A stretch of DNA of 39,278 bases from a bacterium (lineage in GTDB: Bacteria > UBP14 > UBA6098 > JAFGQG01): assembly GCA_016930435.1 (NCBI GenBank), contig JAFGGQ010000038.1, forward strand, positions 1 to 39,278, in the 5' to 3' direction. How positions within the stretch are numbered: the first letter of the stretch is position 1; each line of letters begins with the position of its first letter. Shown here in pieces: positions 14,392-38,208 of the stretch. The position numbers and the translations under genes are program-made. The notes below the pieces were generated by a model. The model searched no databases, was not told where the DNA came from, and saw only the letters and a program-made list of their open reading frames with translations.

Positions 14392-16188
14392 ATGAAAGAG
14401 TATAAAATCGCATTAATCCTTTTTGCGTTTACCAGCCTCCTTGTGGGCGGGCAATTCCCCACAGAATACATTACCGTCTCCCACCGGGGAACCGGCCAAC
14501 CGGGCTACTTTGAAACGGATATAGCGAGATCGCCAATTGAGAATCTTACGGGTTTTGCCCTGCGGCTTACCGGCGAAATGCCCCCGGGTACTAAAATTAC
14601 AGCCAGTATTTACTGGTCAGGCGATGGCAAGAGTTGGGAGGGTCCCCTGATCGATGATGAGATAGGTCCCAATGATGAAGAAGGGCCGAAAGACGGATAC
14701 CTTTACGGCGACTTTTTTTTCCCGGGGGATACACCTGCTCACAATTATAGGGCAGAGTTCCGGCTGAAAGCCTCGGGGAACCTGACACCGCGGATCGACA
14801 GGGTAGAATTCGTTTTTATGGATTGTGGTACCACCGAATATCCTCTGTATAATTCCTATGCCGCGGTGCTGGATTACCCCATGCCTCCCTATATCAGCCG
14901 CTACGCCTGGAGTTGTCCAATCCCCGATACCTTCGCATCCGGGGTTCCCTACTATGTGAATGCTCATCATATTGTGACCCACCATACCGCCGGGGCAACA
15001 TCTACCCCCTCCGACCCGGCTGCAACCGTCCGGGGTATCTGGAATTACCACGTCAATACCCGGGGGTGGAATGATATCGGCTATAATTTTCTGTTGGATC
15101 ACCTTGGCAATATTTACGAGGGGCGCTACTGTGCCGATCTGGCTAACCTGGACGTGCAGGGCGCTCACGTTAGCGGTCATAATACAGGAGCAATGGGCTA
15201 CTCCGTACTGGGTAATTTCGAGGTTGACACCATCCTCCATGCTACCCTGCCGGCAATCTATTCGCTGTTAGCCTGGAAATGCGACCAGCGCGAACTGGAC
15301 CCACACGGAACCGGCTGGCACGTGGACGGAACATATAACATCATCTGTGGTCACCGGGATATGGACGATACCGACTGCCCCGGCGCAAACTTCTACCCCA
15401 TGTTACCCATGATCCGGGACTCCGTGGCTAACCGGTTAAGCTATATCCCTGAAGGCACCGACTCCTTCATTGTGGATAATGGGAACACGGGCTTTCGTGA
15501 TTCCGGCGAATGGATCGAGGGATCATGGGACACAACGTATGGCTGGGATAATGATTATCAGTATTGCAATGCTGGTGGCGCGCCTGACTGGGCGACCTGG
15601 ACGCCTACCCTGCCCTCCTATGCGGCATACAACCTCTATATGTGGTGGTACGCCGGCGACAACCGCTGCAATAACGTGTTCGTTATGATCAGCGGTGAAG
15701 AGCCGGATACTATTTTGGTCTCTCAACGGGGAAGCGGCGCGGGTTGGCATCTCCTGGGAAACTACCTCTTCCTCCCCGGCGATGAAGGCTACGTGGAGAT
15801 CAGGGACCATACCGCCACCGACGGTTCCGTAATCATCGCCGACGCCGTAAAGTGGGTACTCACCGAAGAACTGGGAACGGAATCCGGGGACGCGTACAAC
15901 TTACCGGAATGCTTAAGGCTGTATTGTTATCCAAACCCGTTCAACTCAAAACTGCAAATTGAAATTAGTAATCCAACCCTTGACAATCTGACCCCTATAA
16001 AAATTCAAATACACGATCTAAGGGGTCGGACAATAGCCTCTTTATGCCATACAGACCAAACTTCCACGCCCTCCCCGGAAAACACTTTCGAATGGGAGCC
16101 TAATGCTTCAATAAGTTCCGGAGTCTATTTGATCAATGTAAATTGGGGATTTCATAATCTGACCGGACGGGTAGTCTATCTAAAGTAA
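14392..16188 (+). CDS. Secreted N-acetylmuramoyl-L-alanine amidase (Amidase_2/PGRP fold) with golvesin-like module and type IX sorting tail
   Basis: 598 aa with an N-terminal signal peptide (KIALILFAFTSLLVGG). After a beta-rich N-terminal module (20-145), residues about 188-350 form a zinc amidase domain of the PGRP/T7-lysozyme fold: THHTAG (196-201, His197 or His198), GWNDIGYNFLLDHLGNIYEGR (225-245), CGHRDMDDTDCPG (319-331). His197, His321 and Cys329 are the probable zinc ligands, and Tyr231 matches the conserved catalytic-region Tyr. It should cut the amide between muramic acid and L-alanine. Residues about 355-495 resemble the golvesin/Xly-type carbohydrate-binding domain (FIVDNGNTGF, VIIADAVKWVL). 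The tail from 512 begins CYPNPFN. A type IX cargo amidase acting outside the outer membrane would target other cells' peptidoglycan or shed wall; this is inference. Confidence 0.85.
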   Translation: MKEYKIALILFAFTSLLVGGQFPTEYITVSHRGTGQPGYFETDIARSPIENLTGFALRLTGEMPPGTKITASIYWSGDGKSWEGPLIDDEIGPNDEEGPKDGYLYGDFFFPGDTPAHNYRAEFRLKASGNLTPRIDRVEFVFMDCGTTEYPLYNSYAAVLDYPMPPYISRYAWSCPIPDTFASGVPYYVNAHHIVTHHTAGATSTPSDPAATVRGIWNYHVNTRGWNDIGYNFLLDHLGNIYEGRYCADLANLDVQGAHVSGHNTGAMGYSVLGNFEVDTILHATLPAIYSLLAWKCDQRELDPHGTGWHVDGTYNIICGHRDMDDTDCPGANFYPMLPMIRDSVANRLSYIPEGTDSFIVDNGNTGFRDSGEWIEGSWDTTYGWDNDYQYCNAGGAPDWATWTPTLPSYAAYNLYMWWYAGDNRCNNVFVMISGEEPDTILVSQRGSGAGWHLLGNYLFLPGDEGYVEIRDHTATDGSVIIADAVKWVLTEELGTESGDAYNLPECLRLYCYPNPFNSKLQIEISNPTLDNLTPIKIQIHDLRGRTIASLCHTDQTSTPSPENTFEWEPNASISSGVYLINVNWGFHNLTGRVVYLK

Positions 16189-28411: not shown

Positions 28412-30319
28412 ATGTCAAAGAAGCTTTATAACACAATAATAAACGGGGGGAATGGGGATATCAAATTATTTTCAAATCGTTTCCAGGTGGAATTTGAGTG
28501 CTGGGATGATTTTGAGAATAGTGACCTTAGGGACCTATGGCATTCCAATCCTGACATTCACCGTATTCTTCGGGACAGCATTTCCCTTGATGAAGCCCGG
28601 GATTTTCTTTATGATTATCTTGCCCGGCGTGAACGCTGGATATTCGAGGTGGACAACAAGCTTCACCCACTGGAAAAGGCAAATATTAGGGAGTGCATTC
28701 GCGTATTCAGGAGTATTCTTGCCCCCATAAATGAACTGCGTACAGGTCATAGTTCATTGTATTATTTATGGAAATTGGCCGTTGAAAACGAGAACGCTCT
28801 TCCCCAACCCATCTCCCGTGGGTTCATTCTGGAGTTTATTCATCTTTTCCGAGGGGTTGTGGGTTTATCCCATATTTACAGCCCAACGGGTATTTGCAAG
28901 GAGGACCTCCCTCATTTTTCGCGCCATAAGGGCCGAAAGGCCGCTATTTTGCGCTCCGAGGTGCTGGACCGGGAGGGTGAAATCATCGAGAGTTATATAA
29001 ATCGCTATCCCTCGGGCATGGAACCGGCAGTAGTCCGGAAAAGAAAAGATAATAGAGACCGTATATTAAGGTATTTCGATAGCACTATTGAAAGCTGGAA
29101 TAATTATCACTGGCATCTGGAGCATGTTATCAGGGAGGAAAAAACTCTATCTAACCTGGTGGATCTGACCGATATTGAAAAGGAGGGGATACGCATAGCC
29201 GTTCAAAATAAGATACCCTTTGGAGTTACTCCCTATTACGCTTCCCTTATGGACAAGGAATCCAGTCGGATTTGGGACCATCAAATCCGCTCTCAGGTTA
29301 TTCCTCCCCTGGATTATTCCCGGATAATGGCTGAGCATAAGGCTGATCGCACCAGCGCTTTCGATTTCATGGGGGAGGTGGATACATCGCCGGTTGACCT
29401 GGTCACGCGCCGTTACCCCAAGATAGCAATCTTTAAACCTTATAACACCTGCTCACAGATCTGCGTTTATTGTCAGCGGAACTGGGAGGTTCAGGAGGTA
29501 CTGTCGCCCGGAGCGCTCGCACCTCCCGATCAGCAGGATGCTGCTTTGACTTGGTTCGAAGAACATCCCACCATTACCGAGGTACTGATCACCGGCGGCG
29601 ACCCCGCACTGATGGAAGATTCACAGATAGATTACATTTTGTCGAGATTCGCTGCGATAGAGCATATAAAGCGTATTCGTTTTGCCACCCGCACACCCGT
29701 GGTCCTGCCCTTCAGGATCACAGATGATTTTGTGGATATATTAGCCAGGTATCATCAGCCGGGCCGGCGGGAAGTAGCAGTAGTTACCCATATAGAGCAC
29801 GTTTATGAGGCAACACCGGAGGCGATGGCGGCGGTTCAGCGGATTCGCCGGAAGGGCCTGGCGGTATATAACCAGGTGGTATTCACCATGGAGAACAGCC
29901 GCCGGTTTGAGCTGGTAGCTCTGCGCCGGCTATTGCGACTGATCGGGGTGGAATCATACTACACCTTCAACACCAAGGGCAAGGCGGAAACCCGCGCTTA
30001 CCGGGTACCAATCGCCAGATTGCTGCAGGAACGCAAGGAAGAAGCCCGGTTAATGCCCGGTTTGACCAGAACGGACGAAGCCGTATTCAACGTCCCGCGA
30101 ATGGGAAAGAACCACCTGAGAGCCGCCCAGGACCGAAGGCTGGTTATGATACGACCCGACGGCCGGCGGATCTACGAATTCCACCCCTGGGAAAAAAACC
30201 TGCTGCCAGTCGATATTTACTTTAATTATGTGGATGTCTCTATATGGGATTATCTCAAGGAACTGGACCGCCGCGGGGAGGATATCACCAAATATAGGAC
30301 AATATGGTATTACTTTTGA
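28412..30319 (+). CDS. KamA-family (lysine 2,3-aminomutase-like) radical SAM protein with long N-terminal region
   Basis: 635 aa; ATG 28412 after AAAGGAG. The C-terminal half holds a radical SAM domain: C-x3-C-x2-C at Cys347, Cys351, Cys354 (TCSQICVYCQRNWEV) for a [4Fe-4S] cluster, and ITGGDPALM (393-401) for SAM contact. Downstream segments (RIRFATRTPVVLP, VVTHIEHVYEATPEA, VYNQVVFT) match lysine/glutamate 2,3-aminomutases. The usual PLP loop of aminomutases is Gly-rich with one Lys (PGGGGK); here the equivalent stretch reads VFNVPRMGKNHLR (559-571), so Lys566 may bind PLP but the glycines are gone. The N-terminal 330 residues are far longer than in KamA and helical, without recognised motif. 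A 2,3-aminomutase activity is possible but a different reaction is as likely. It stands alone between non-coding gaps. Confidence 0.75.
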   Translation: MSKKLYNTIINGGNGDIKLFSNRFQVEFECWDDFENSDLRDLWHSNPDIHRILRDSISLDEARDFLYDYLARRERWIFEVDNKLHPLEKANIRECIRVFRSILAPINELRTGHSSLYYLWKLAVENENALPQPISRGFILEFIHLFRGVVGLSHIYSPTGICKEDLPHFSRHKGRKAAILRSEVLDREGEIIESYINRYPSGMEPAVVRKRKDNRDRILRYFDSTIESWNNYHWHLEHVIREEKTLSNLVDLTDIEKEGIRIAVQNKIPFGVTPYYASLMDKESSRIWDHQIRSQVIPPLDYSRIMAEHKADRTSAFDFMGEVDTSPVDLVTRRYPKIAIFKPYNTCSQICVYCQRNWEVQEVLSPGALAPPDQQDAALTWFEEHPTITEVLITGGDPALMEDSQIDYILSRFAAIEHIKRIRFATRTPVVLPFRITDDFVDILARYHQPGRREVAVVTHIEHVYEATPEAMAAVQRIRRKGLAVYNQVVFTMENSRRFELVALRRLLRLIGVESYYTFNTKGKAETRAYRVPIARLLQERKEEARLMPGLTRTDEAVFNVPRMGKNHLRAAQDRRLVMIRPDGRRIYEFHPWEKNLLPVDIYFNYVDVSIWDYLKELDRRGEDITKYRTIWYYF

Positions 30320-31729: not shown

Positions 31730-32221
31730 ATGAGATTGAAAATTCGGATCATAATAACCGGTGGGACATTCGATAAGCATTATGATGAATTACAGGGCAG
31801 CCTTACCTTTAAAGACACCTTTCTGCCGGAAATACTGAATAATGCTCGCTGTACCGTTCCCCTTAAGCTCGAAATCAACGAATTATTGGATAGTCTGGAG
31901 ATGGGTGAGGATGATCGTCAGAGTATTCTGCTTTCCTGCCGGAATGCCGAAGAGGACCACATCGTGATAACCCATGGGACGGACACCATGACCGAAACCG
32001 CGGCGGTACTGGGTAAAGCCGGTTTAAACAAGACCATCGTTCTCACCGGTGCTATGAGGCCTTATATCCTAACCAATTCCGATGCTGTTTTTAACCTGGG
32101 GGGCAGCATAACCGCGGTGCAGCTCCTTCCGCCCGGAGTTTACATTGTGATCAACGGGAGGGTCTTCAGCTGGAATGAGGTTCGCAAAAACCGACAAAAG
32201 GGGGTCTTTGAGGAGGTCTGA
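31730..32221 (+). CDS. Short asparaginase N-domain protein
   Basis: 163 aa, matching only the N-terminal domain of L-asparaginases (normally about 330 aa). Both catalytic triads are present: TGGTFD (10-15) with Thr13 as likely nucleophile, and THGTDT (81-86); LTGAMRP (106-111) follows as in full-length enzymes. The C-terminal domain that completes the dimer interface and active site is absent, and the next 160 nt contain no remnant of it, so this looks like a true single-domain family member and not a recent truncation. ATG 31730 is only 2 nt from AGAGAGG; the in-frame TTG at 31736 has better spacing and may be the real start (161 aa). Whether it hydrolyses asparagine is uncertain. Confidence 0.75.
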   Translation: MRLKIRIIITGGTFDKHYDELQGSLTFKDTFLPEILNNARCTVPLKLEINELLDSLEMGEDDRQSILLSCRNAEEDHIVITHGTDTMTETAAVLGKAGLNKTIVLTGAMRPYILTNSDAVFNLGGSITAVQLLPPGVYIVINGRVFSWNEVRKNRQKGVFEEV

Positions 32222-34243: not shown

Positions 34244-35599
34244 TCAATCCTCAAGCAGCCCTTTGGGAACGGGTTTTATAAACCCATCCTCCATCATGCT
34301 ATGAACCTGGTCCCGGGCATGTTTGATCTTTGTTTCAGCCATGTTCATAAGCTCCTGAGGAGTAAGTTTCAACCGGGCAACTCCCTGTTCGATGGCCTTC
34401 ATCCCCACGGCAACGGCTTCACGGGGAAATACTTCCCATTCATCCATGGTCGGGATAATATAGTCGTCCCGCAGTCCTTTGTCCTCGGCTACTTTAGCCA
34501 GTTCAAATGCTGCGGCTAAACACATCTCGTCGGTAATGGTGAGCGCTCTGACATCCAGGGTCCCCCGGAATATGCCCGGGAAGCCCAATGAATTATTCAC
34601 CTGGTTGGGGAAATCGCTTCTTCCGGTTGCAACTATACGGGCACCGGCTTCAAGCGCATCCCATGGGAATATCTCGGGAACCGGATTGGCGCATGTAAAT
34701 AGAATGGCATCTTTAGCCATGTCCGATACCCACTGGGGTTCGATAACACCCGGGCCGGATTTAGATAGCGCGATTACGACATCAGCGCCCTTCATTGCAG
34801 CCGGTATGCCACCCTTGATATTCCCGGGATTGGTCATTTCACAGAGCTCCCATTTTTCAATCTGAATGGTATCCCTGCGGATATCGTCGCGGTATGGGCC
34901 CAGTGTATCCCTGGAGTCGGCGATTATGCACTTCTTGGGATCAATACCCGCTTTAAAACAGAGATGAGCGATCTTGACATTGCTGGCTCCGGAACCGATA
35001 AAGCCCACTTTAACCTGGTCCAACTTTTTGCCCACCACCTTTAGGGCGTTTATCAATCCCGCAACGGTAACCGTTGCCGTGCCCTGCTGATCGTCGTGCC
35101 AGACCGGAATGCGTGCCTTCTGGCGCAGTTCCTCCAGTATGCGGAAACATTTGGGTTTCTCGATGTCCTCCAGGTTGAATCCCCCGAATGCCGGCTGGAG
35201 GAGAAGGGCAGTGCGAATGAATTCCTGGGGATCTTTAGTGTCTAAAGCAAGGGGAAAAGCATCCACTCCACCCAGATATTTGAATAGAATGGCTTTCCCC
35301 TCCATGACCGGCATGGATGCCTCGGGCCCGATATCGCCCAGTCCGAGCACCCTCGTGCCGTCGGTAAGCACCGCTATCATGTTGGCCTTATTGGTATGTT
35401 CGTACACAGTCTCCGGGTGAGCCTGGATGTCGAGGCAGGGCTTCGCTACCCCAGGAGTGTACCAGATTGCGAAATCATTAAAGTCGCGAATAATGCACTT
35501 GACACCCAACTCTATCTTTCCCTTATAGAAAGGGTGCAGTTTCATGGCCTCTTTGCCGGGTTTCTCGCTTTTCTCAATTAGCTCTTCTCGGGTGGACAT
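34244..35599 (-). CDS. NAD(P)-dependent malic enzyme (oxaloacetate-decarboxylating)
   Basis: 451 aa on the minus strand. ATG 35599 is preferred to the in-frame GTG at 35605, which overlaps the ribosome site AAGGAG itself. It converts malate to pyruvate, CO2 and NAD(P)H. Catalytic Tyr47 lies in WYTPGVA, Lys102 in EGKAILFK; metal ligands are Glu145-Asp146 (FNLEDI) and Asp170 (WHDDQQGTA). The Rossmann loop is GSGASN (202-207), and ALSKSGPGVI and FTCANPVPEI follow. Size and motifs are of the short bacterial type without a phosphotransacetylase domain. Cofactor preference cannot be told. It is convergent with fhs. Confidence 0.93.
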   Translation of the reverse strand: MSTREELIEKSEKPGKEAMKLHPFYKGKIELGVKCIIRDFNDFAIWYTPGVAKPCLDIQAHPETVYEHTNKANMIAVLTDGTRVLGLGDIGPEASMPVMEGKAILFKYLGGVDAFPLALDTKDPQEFIRTALLLQPAFGGFNLEDIEKPKCFRILEELRQKARIPVWHDDQQGTATVTVAGLINALKVVGKKLDQVKVGFIGSGASNVKIAHLCFKAGIDPKKCIIADSRDTLGPYRDDIRRDTIQIEKWELCEMTNPGNIKGGIPAAMKGADVVIALSKSGPGVIEPQWVSDMAKDAILFTCANPVPEIFPWDALEAGARIVATGRSDFPNQVNNSLGFPGIFRGTLDVRALTITDEMCLAAAFELAKVAEDKGLRDDYIIPTMDEWEVFPREAVAVGMKAIEQGVARLKLTPQELMNMAETKIKHARDQVHSMMEDGFIKPVPKGLLED

Positions 35600-35605
35600 C
35601 CTCAC

Positions 35606-35917
35606 TCCTTGTTAAATTATGGTCTTCATAAACTTCGGTGTAGCAGAGTTATGTTCAATAATACATTTATTATCACGGATGGGGATGGAAATGGGTTATA
35701 ATCTCCTTCTACTATTATCGGATAACGAGATTTTGTAATGGACAATGCCGGTTCCGATAAAAAACTATCCTAATATAATACCTTCAAAATCTTTTGCAAT
35801 TAGAATCTGAACATAATGGAATTTGAACTTGTTTCGAATAGAAGAAAAATCCGGCTGGTTTTTATGAGCAACCACTCAACAGATGAACAGTTGACCTTAA
35901 GCAAGGCAGGTTCGGCG
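35606..35917. other. Non-coding gap left of the CRISPR-like remnant
   Basis: 312 nt upstream of the malic enzyme gene. AT-rich, no gene seen. The rest of the gap (to 36540) holds the features listed next. Confidence 0.5.
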
Positions 35918-36028
35918 ATGAAGGATTTTATCCTTCATAAGCCAACCCACGCACCCGCGAAGGGTATTGCGACTTAATCTCGGTGCAGTTGCCCCGAGCT
36001 TTTAGGAGTTTGCCGTTCGTCAAACTCC
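35918..36028. repeat. Row of hairpins in the malic enzyme-mutase gap
   Basis: Perfect hairpin ATGAAGGA/TCCTTCAT (35918-35925, 35931-35938; loop TTTTA). Then the CRISPR-repeat-like sequence (35943-35973), itself with ACCC/GGGT dyad symmetry. Then CTCGG/CCGAG (about 35979-35999). Then GGAGTTTG/CAAACTCC (36005-36012, 36021-36028; loop of 8). Four hairpins in 111 nt is far above what the rest of the window shows. Confidence 0.7.
35943..35973 (-). CRISPR. Solitary, degenerate type I-C-like CRISPR repeat (remnant)
   Basis: Read on the minus strand it starts GTCGCAATACCC at 35973, continues TTCGCGGGTGCGTGG and ends GTTG at 35943. Type I-C repeats begin GTCGC, have a short G/C dyad in the middle, and end GTGGATTGAAAC or similar. 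The match breaks at the 3' end (GGC in place of AAAC), as in many leader-distal terminal repeats. Only one copy is convincing and no regular spacers are present, so this is a relic and not an array. It lies on the same strand and 92 nt beyond the Cas3-like fragment. Confidence 0.5.
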
Positions 36029-36064
36029 CCTACTGGAATTTTTGTTAGTTTCAAACCTGCCGCG

Positions 36065-36235
36065 TTAGTAATACTGTGTCAGCCTGGCAAGCCTTTCAAG
36101 TTCAGTGACAGGCTTATCCCGTTTAAAAAAGCGTAATACGAATTCAGCCGTTCCGTCTAAATGTTGTTTTATGGACTGTTTCCGATCCGAATTGTCTTTG
36201 GAAACATGGGCGAGATAATCATTAAATTTGGCCAT
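36065..36235 (-). pseudogene. cas3: Truncated Cas3-like HD nuclease N-terminus
   Basis: 56 codons from ATG 36235 (an in-frame TTG at 36262 is possible). The peptide begins MAKFNDYLAHVSKDNSDRK and continues QSIKQHLDGTAEFVLRFF. This resembles the start of Cas3'' HD domains, which read roughly Y-x-AH, polar turn, Q-S/T-[LIV]-x-x-HL-x-G-T/V-A. His and the following helix are present, but the frame stops after LERLARLTQYY, just before the place where the HD dyad (LLHDIGK-type) should come. A complete Cas3 is 700-800 residues. No other cas gene follows. Taken with the adjacent I-C-like repeat it is best read as the 5' stub of a deleted type I-C locus. A short unrelated ORF cannot be excluded. Confidence 0.5.
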
Positions 36236-36262
36236 TACTTCGCACCCCCGATTTCTTACCAA

Positions 36263-36540: not shown

Positions 36541-38208
36541 ATGTTCGATCCCCAAAGCATAGATAAGATAAAAAAGGCCCGGGATGCCTGGGCGAAGGAA
36601 TTTGATGGTACCCGTCAGCAGAAGATGAAATTTATTACGGTTTCCGGAGAACCTATCGATCCGCTCTATACTCCGCTGGAGCTTCAGGGTCACGATTTCA
36701 TGGAGAAGATTGGTTTCCCCGGTCAATACCCATACACCCGGGGCGTCTATCCCAGCATGTACCGTGGCCGCCACTGGACTATGCGCCAGTTCTCCGGGAT
36801 GGGGTCTGCCAAAGACACCAATCAGCGTTACCATTATCTCCTTAAGCATGGCCAAACAGGGCTGTCCGTCGCCTTCGATATGCCCACCCTGATGGGCTAT
36901 GACTCCGACCATGTCTTCTCACACGGGGAAGTAGGCAAATGCGGGGTTACGGTGGATTCCCTGAAGGATATGGAAATCATCTTCGACGGCATCCCGCTCG
37001 ATAAAATATCCACCTCCATGACCATTAACGCCCCCGCCTCTATTCTGTTGGCAATGTATATCGTGGTAGGCGAGAAGCAGGGATTAGATCAAAATATATT
37101 GACGGGTACGCTTCAAAATGATATACTAAAAGAGTATATCGCACAGAAAGAATGGATATATCCGCCGGAACCATCAATGCGTCTGATTGTAGATACTATC
37201 GAATACTGTACTAATTACGTTCCCAAGTGGAACACAATATCCATATCGGGTTATCATATCCGGGAGGCAGGTGCCACCGCCGTTCAGGAACTTGCTTTCA
37301 CGCTCGCCGACGGATTCGCGTATGTTGAGGCGGGAATAGAGCGGGGGCTCGATGTGGACGATTTTGCGCCCCGCCTTTCGCATTTTTTCAACTCGCACCT
37401 CGATTTTTTCGAGGAGATCGCTAAATATCGCGCTGCCAGAAGGATTTGGGCCAGAAGGATGAAGGAAAAATACGGGGCAAAAAATCCAAAATCGTTGCTT
37501 ATGCGTTTCCATACCCAGACCGCAGGGTGCAGTCTTACCGCCCAGCAACCATATAATAATATCGTACGCACCGCTATACAGGGCCTCGCTGCGGCGATCG
37601 GCGGAACACAAAGCCTGCATACAAACTCGATGGACGAAACATACGCACTTCCATCCGAGGAAGCGGTAAAGATCGCCCTCCGCACCCAGCAGTTGATCGC
37701 TTACGAGACCGGGGTTACCAATACCATTGACCCACTGGCGGGTTCCTACTTCGTAGAAAAGCTCACCGACCGTATGGAAGAAGAAGCTGAGGCTTATTTT
37801 GAAGAGATCGATAAGAGGGGGGGAGTAATCCCGGCGATCGAGGAGGGTTATTTTCAACGTGAGATCGCCAGGGCCGCCTACCGCTATCAGCAGGCTATCG
37901 AGACCGGAGATCGTACCGTGGTGGGAGTGAACCGCTTTGCGGAAGAGGAAGAAAATGTAAAGATCCCCCTGCTCAAAATCGACGAGTCCGTGGAGTTGGA
38001 CCAGGTCGAAGCGCTGGAGAAAATCCGGAAAGCTCGGGATAATGATGCGGTTAAAAGGAGTCTGGATAAACTAAGGTTGATCGCTGAGGGCACCGAAAAC
38101 ACCATGCCGGCTACTATTGAATGCGTCCGGAATTACTGCACCGAGGGCGAAATTTGCGATATATTCCGTGAAGTTTTTGGTGAATACCAGGAAAAAAGCA
38201 TTATTTAA
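36541..38208 (+). CDS. B12-dependent acyl-CoA mutase large subunit (methylmalonyl-CoA mutase family, isobutyryl-CoA-mutase-like active site)
   Basis: 555 aa, the catalytic TIM-barrel subunit of a split mutase; the B12 domain is the separate gene at 38377. Family motifs: [16 protein letters not shown] (75-90), [15 protein letters not shown] (109-123), NGTL-type [17 protein letters not shown] (189-205), [18 protein letters not shown] and [13 protein letters not shown]. Methylmalonyl-CoA mutase has Tyr89 and Arg207 (Propionibacterium numbering) contacting the carboxylate; isobutyryl-CoA mutase has Phe80 and Gln198. Here the equivalent positions are Phe84 and Gln202, the same 118 residues apart. 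Size (about 560 plus 132) also fits IcmA/IcmB. Substrate may thus be isobutyryl-CoA/butyryl-CoA; methylmalonyl-CoA cannot be excluded, as automatic annotation would suggest. No meaB or epimerase gene follows in the window. Confidence 0.88.

Follow-up and report, generated by a model that had tools for sequence, protein, structure and literature searches.

The gap between a malic enzyme gene (34244-35605, minus strand) and a gene for a methylmalonyl-CoA mutase subunit (36541-38208, plus strand) most likely holds the decayed remains of a lost type I-C CRISPR-Cas locus, namely the 5' end of a cas3 gene followed on the same strand by a single damaged repeat. This reading is well supported because it combines Cas3c identity, a type I-C repeat, the canonical order and strand of the two pieces and the lack of detectable cas genes elsewhere in the genome. 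The window, i.e. the whole stretch of 39,278 nt that was analysed, is contig C66 of a MAG of 2.85 Mb in 180 contigs that is 90% complete. Among named sequences, the mutase is best matched in MAGs that carry the labels Candidatus Zixiibacteriota and neighbouring FCB phyla, so that the host, an uncultured bacterium, is probably Zixiibacteria-like.

The first piece is a 56-codon ORF (36068-36235, minus strand; stop codon TAA at 36065-36067) that encodes MAKFNDYLAHVSKDNSDRKQSIKQHLDGTAEFVLRFFKRDKPVTELERLARLTQYY. In the 61 genomes searched, the highest-ranking matches are Cas3c proteins of two same-class genomes, G004 (50% identity across residues 4-53, with E 4.7e-10) and G013 (43% identity, E 2.7e-6). 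Both targets are assigned to Cas3c by PADLOC (E 3.2e-99 and 4.9e-145, respectively) and both possess the NCBIfam Cas3 HD domain. The HMM search of the peptide that the first-pass annotation had proposed gives PADLOC Cas3c as the sole profile match (E 0.0099), with an alignment that is collinear with those of genuine Cas3c N-termini, all of which begin at profile position 325; Pfam and NCBIfam profiles give no match to this peptide of only 56 aa. Homology to Cas3 extends from the start codon, which is kept, to about residue 53 and is followed by a stop codon. Beyond this point, the relatives read AAARWHDLGKF and AAAKLHDIGKF, which contain the HD dyad, whereas the window reads LTQYY and then the stop. 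The ORF ends about 8 residues short of the aligned HD dyad, no continuation of Cas3 is present in any frame of 35900-36240, and the HD nuclease motif and the helicase core are missing from the piece. These data agree with the initial description of the ORF as the very start of Cas3, ending just before the HD dyad. Judged from the alignments, the ORF encodes the N-terminal part of a Cas3 of type I-C (Cas3c), and it is a fragment that is non-functional as Cas3. A stand-alone conserved gene, the case that had been named as fatal to a CRISPR origin, was rejected, as the sole clear homologues of the peptide in the 61 genomes are starts of Cas3 proteins. G009 also gives a weak hit (E 0.04), which on inspection is not cas3 and corresponds to an unrelated frame containing a stop.

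The second piece, at 35943-35973 on the minus strand, reads GTCGCAATACCCTTCGCGGGTGCGTGGGTTG and can be written GTCGC[AAT]ACCCTTCGCGGGTGCGTGGGTTG, with a 3-nt insertion (in brackets) and loss of the 3' AAAC. When it is aligned to GTCGCACCCTTCGCGGGTGCGTGGATTG, which we take to be the canonical type I-C repeat and which served as the alignment reference, 27 of 28 positions agree, with one mismatch and the 3-nt insertion, the last four bases being missing. The sequence displays the GTCGC...GCGTGGATTGAAAC arrangement of type I-C repeats together with their internal complementary stem. The statistics are based on repeats from arrays of the same class, GTCGCACCCTTTGCGCGTGCGTGGATTGAAAC (G015, nine copies) and GTCGCACCTTTCACGGGTGCGTGGATTGAAAC (G003). 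The gap scores 16.5 against each of them, a value reached by none of 5000 dinucleotide-preserving shuffles of the gap and by none of 2148 gap-sized segments drawn from other bacterial DNA totalling 0.97 Mb, among which the best score is 15. The piece is accordingly classified, on its letters, as a degenerate type I-C-like CRISPR repeat lying on the strand of the cas3 fragment, in keeping with what had first been noticed.

This repeat stands alone. No second copy was found elsewhere in the genome (about 90% complete), and no second significant repeat was found in the gap or one spacer length upstream of 35943-35973; the two or more repeats with spacers of about 35 nt that define an array are not present. 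The sequence TTTGAAAC at 36048-36057, considered as a second degenerate repeat, was rejected, as its score is not above chance. The 37 and 40 nt that flank the repeat have no protospacer match among the phages searched, and the canonical repeat was not found in viral contigs.

Complete or partial type I-C loci of other genomes of the same class provide the reference for the arrangement of the two pieces. On contig C179 of G015, the order is cas3-cas5-cas8c-cas7-cas4-cas1-cas2-array, all on one strand, which bears out the earlier statement that intact I-C loci start with cas3 and end with the array. Contig C45 of G003 carries cas5 to cas2 plus the first repeat; in these two loci, cas1 and cas8c were identified by profile and the remaining cas genes were named from their position and sequence. 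G013 carries a Cas3c gene followed by cas5 and cas8c. The window shares with such loci (e.g. G015 C179 and G003 C45) the Cas3c N-terminus, the type of repeat, the strand and the order. Unlike the loci of G015 and G003, it has no effector genes, no adaptation genes and no array, and all that is left is the very beginning of cas3 plus a single damaged repeat. Elsewhere in its genome (about 90% complete), neither Cas1, Csd1/Cas8c and Cas5d nor a convincing Cas3 has a match, so that the cas5d, cas8c/Csd1 and cas1 genes of a complete I-C system are not found in this assembly, from which about 10% is missing. As for other same-class genomes, the Cas3c gene of G004 (contig C35) is cut by the contig end, and Cas1 and Cas8c were not found elsewhere in this genome (98% complete). 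In G003, a segment of array whose repeats carry several substitutions lies at 38000-41340 of contig C30, i.e. on a contig that differs from that of the cas genes.

The history of the gap can be proposed as follows. A full I-C locus would once have been present between the malic enzyme and mutase genes, transcribed from the minus strand and with the gene order seen in the same-class relatives. Internal deletion, whether in a single step or in several, would then have removed the region from about codon 54 of cas3 to the surviving repeat, and this deletion, not the import of a fragment, would have produced the association of the cas3 start with the repeat. The remnant, devoid of nuclease, effector, adaptation machinery and spacer set, would have no immune function. 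According to the first-pass annotation, one deletion had run from early cas3 to the final repeat. Both pieces have the order and strand of an intact locus, which is compatible with this proposal. However, a one-deletion model predicts that the sequence between the pieces comes from the array, the leader or a cas gene. This presumed deletion-junction region (35974-36064, minus strand) is 91 nt long when counted from the stop codon, not 92 nt as first given, and has no match to cas proteins, I-C leaders of the relatives, array units or phages. The data are therefore compatible with a single deletion as one possibility among several, and the surviving repeat may have been the last one of its array.

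Most of this intervening sequence, together with the repeat, belongs to a strongly foldable stretch of 167 nt (35897-36063, both strands). In the predicted fold, a closing stem of 10 bp (GGCAGGTTTG/CGAACCTGCC) encloses four hairpins, and the repeat lies in one of them. The folding z is about -4.8 as RNA and about -5.5 as DNA, and the nearest scanning window has the third strongest fold among the 652 scanned. The closing stem starts at 36063, adjoining the cas3 stop, i.e. the fold begins where the homology to cas3 ends, and given this position an inserted element could form the right-hand part of the remnant. The stretch is single-copy in the genome, and no homologue was detected in 145 genomes, plasmids and phages, either by blastn or with a single-sequence covariance model; its identification as a tRNA, a tmRNA or a member of an Rfam family was rejected, as no match was obtained. 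It may be a flank of the former array, a later insertion or a chance build-up of hairpins. In the same scan, two other stretches on the minus strand, 15601-15770 and 29761-29930, have a folding z below -4, both being located opposite long plus-strand ORFs.

These features could also be explained if the cas3 fragment were real and the 167-nt stretch were an independent structured element, mobile or RNA, one hairpin of which would be I-C-like by chance. The strength of the fold, the start of its closing stem right beside the cas3 stop and the occupation of the whole stretch by hairpins all speak for this rather unlikely explanation. However, the repeat outscores every background segment and every shuffle when real I-C repeats of the same class are used for comparison, and it is found on the correct strand and on the correct side of the Cas3c fragment. 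Furthermore, an active mobile element is argued against by the absence of copies in the genome and of homologues among the 145 genomes, plasmids or phages.

It is likewise unlikely that the cas3 start and the repeat were imported already broken by horizontal transfer into a lineage where an I-C system was never functional at this place. Such an import would fit with the same-family genome G001, in which no Cas1, Cas8c or Cas3 fragment was found, and with the malic enzyme-mutase neighbourhood, which is not conserved in the class, no close relative carrying an intact locus here. However, the fragment is most closely related to same-class Cas3c genes, complete I-C loci are present in the class, and the arrival of an intact locus followed by its decay is simpler. 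The comparison of the syntenic gap suggested earlier as a way to find an intact locus gave no such locus, as the neighbourhood is not kept in any relative examined. For the same reason, the gap does not reveal its ancestral arrangement, and the remnant does not date the loss of immunity in this lineage, as had first been proposed that it would.

An assembly artefact, in which a join between strain variants would have placed the cas3 start near the repeat, is very unlikely: the MAG is made of 180 contigs and contig ends interrupt CRISPR loci in the relatives as well, but the junction contains no run of N and no long repeat is common to both of its sides. There is scarcely any likelihood that the 167-nt stretch is being maintained as a small RNA or DNA element, having taken over the CRISPR repeat after the loss of the cas genes. 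Degenerate-repeat RNAs that guide Cascade in gene regulation exist, and a degenerate repeat that has a structured flank and a strong predicted fold and lies beside the start of a cas gene recalls them; however, a functional small RNA derived from the CRISPR repeat and its surrounding hairpins is the least probable explanation of all, since no Cas8c, Cas5d or other Cas3 that could use it was detected in the genome, there is no Rfam match, and the 145 genomes provide no homologue from which conservation could be judged.

A lost type I-C locus, the explanation retained here, has precedents. It is common to find isolated cas genes and orphan CRISPRs (Zhang and Ye 2017, PMC5294841), which likewise are cas or CRISPR pieces found outside a complete system; in contrast to these cases, a cas fragment and a repeat both survive here within 300 nt, each being too small for usual annotation. 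In Staphylococcus epidermidis, CRISPR-Cas is lost under selection by partial or complete deletion (PMC3784566), which similarly abolishes immunity by removing part or all of the locus. However, that work concerns laboratory selection and the csm genes of a type III system, whereas here a natural event is only inferred. CRISPR remnants are thus of an already known kind, of which the pair in the window is a clean new example, and the remnant alone alters no mechanism. The pair forms a compact and two-ended trace of lost adaptive immunity, both pieces of which fall below the usual annotation size. It assigns a former I-C system to a family in which neither of the two genomes examined shows one today. 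It also suggests that losses of CRISPR could be counted through paired remnants made of a cas start and a repeat.

Another short coding sequence was observed in the window. A 163-aa ORF (31730-32221, plus strand) has a match that is restricted to the N-terminal domain of asparaginase, and it could represent a short form of this enzyme or a truncated one.
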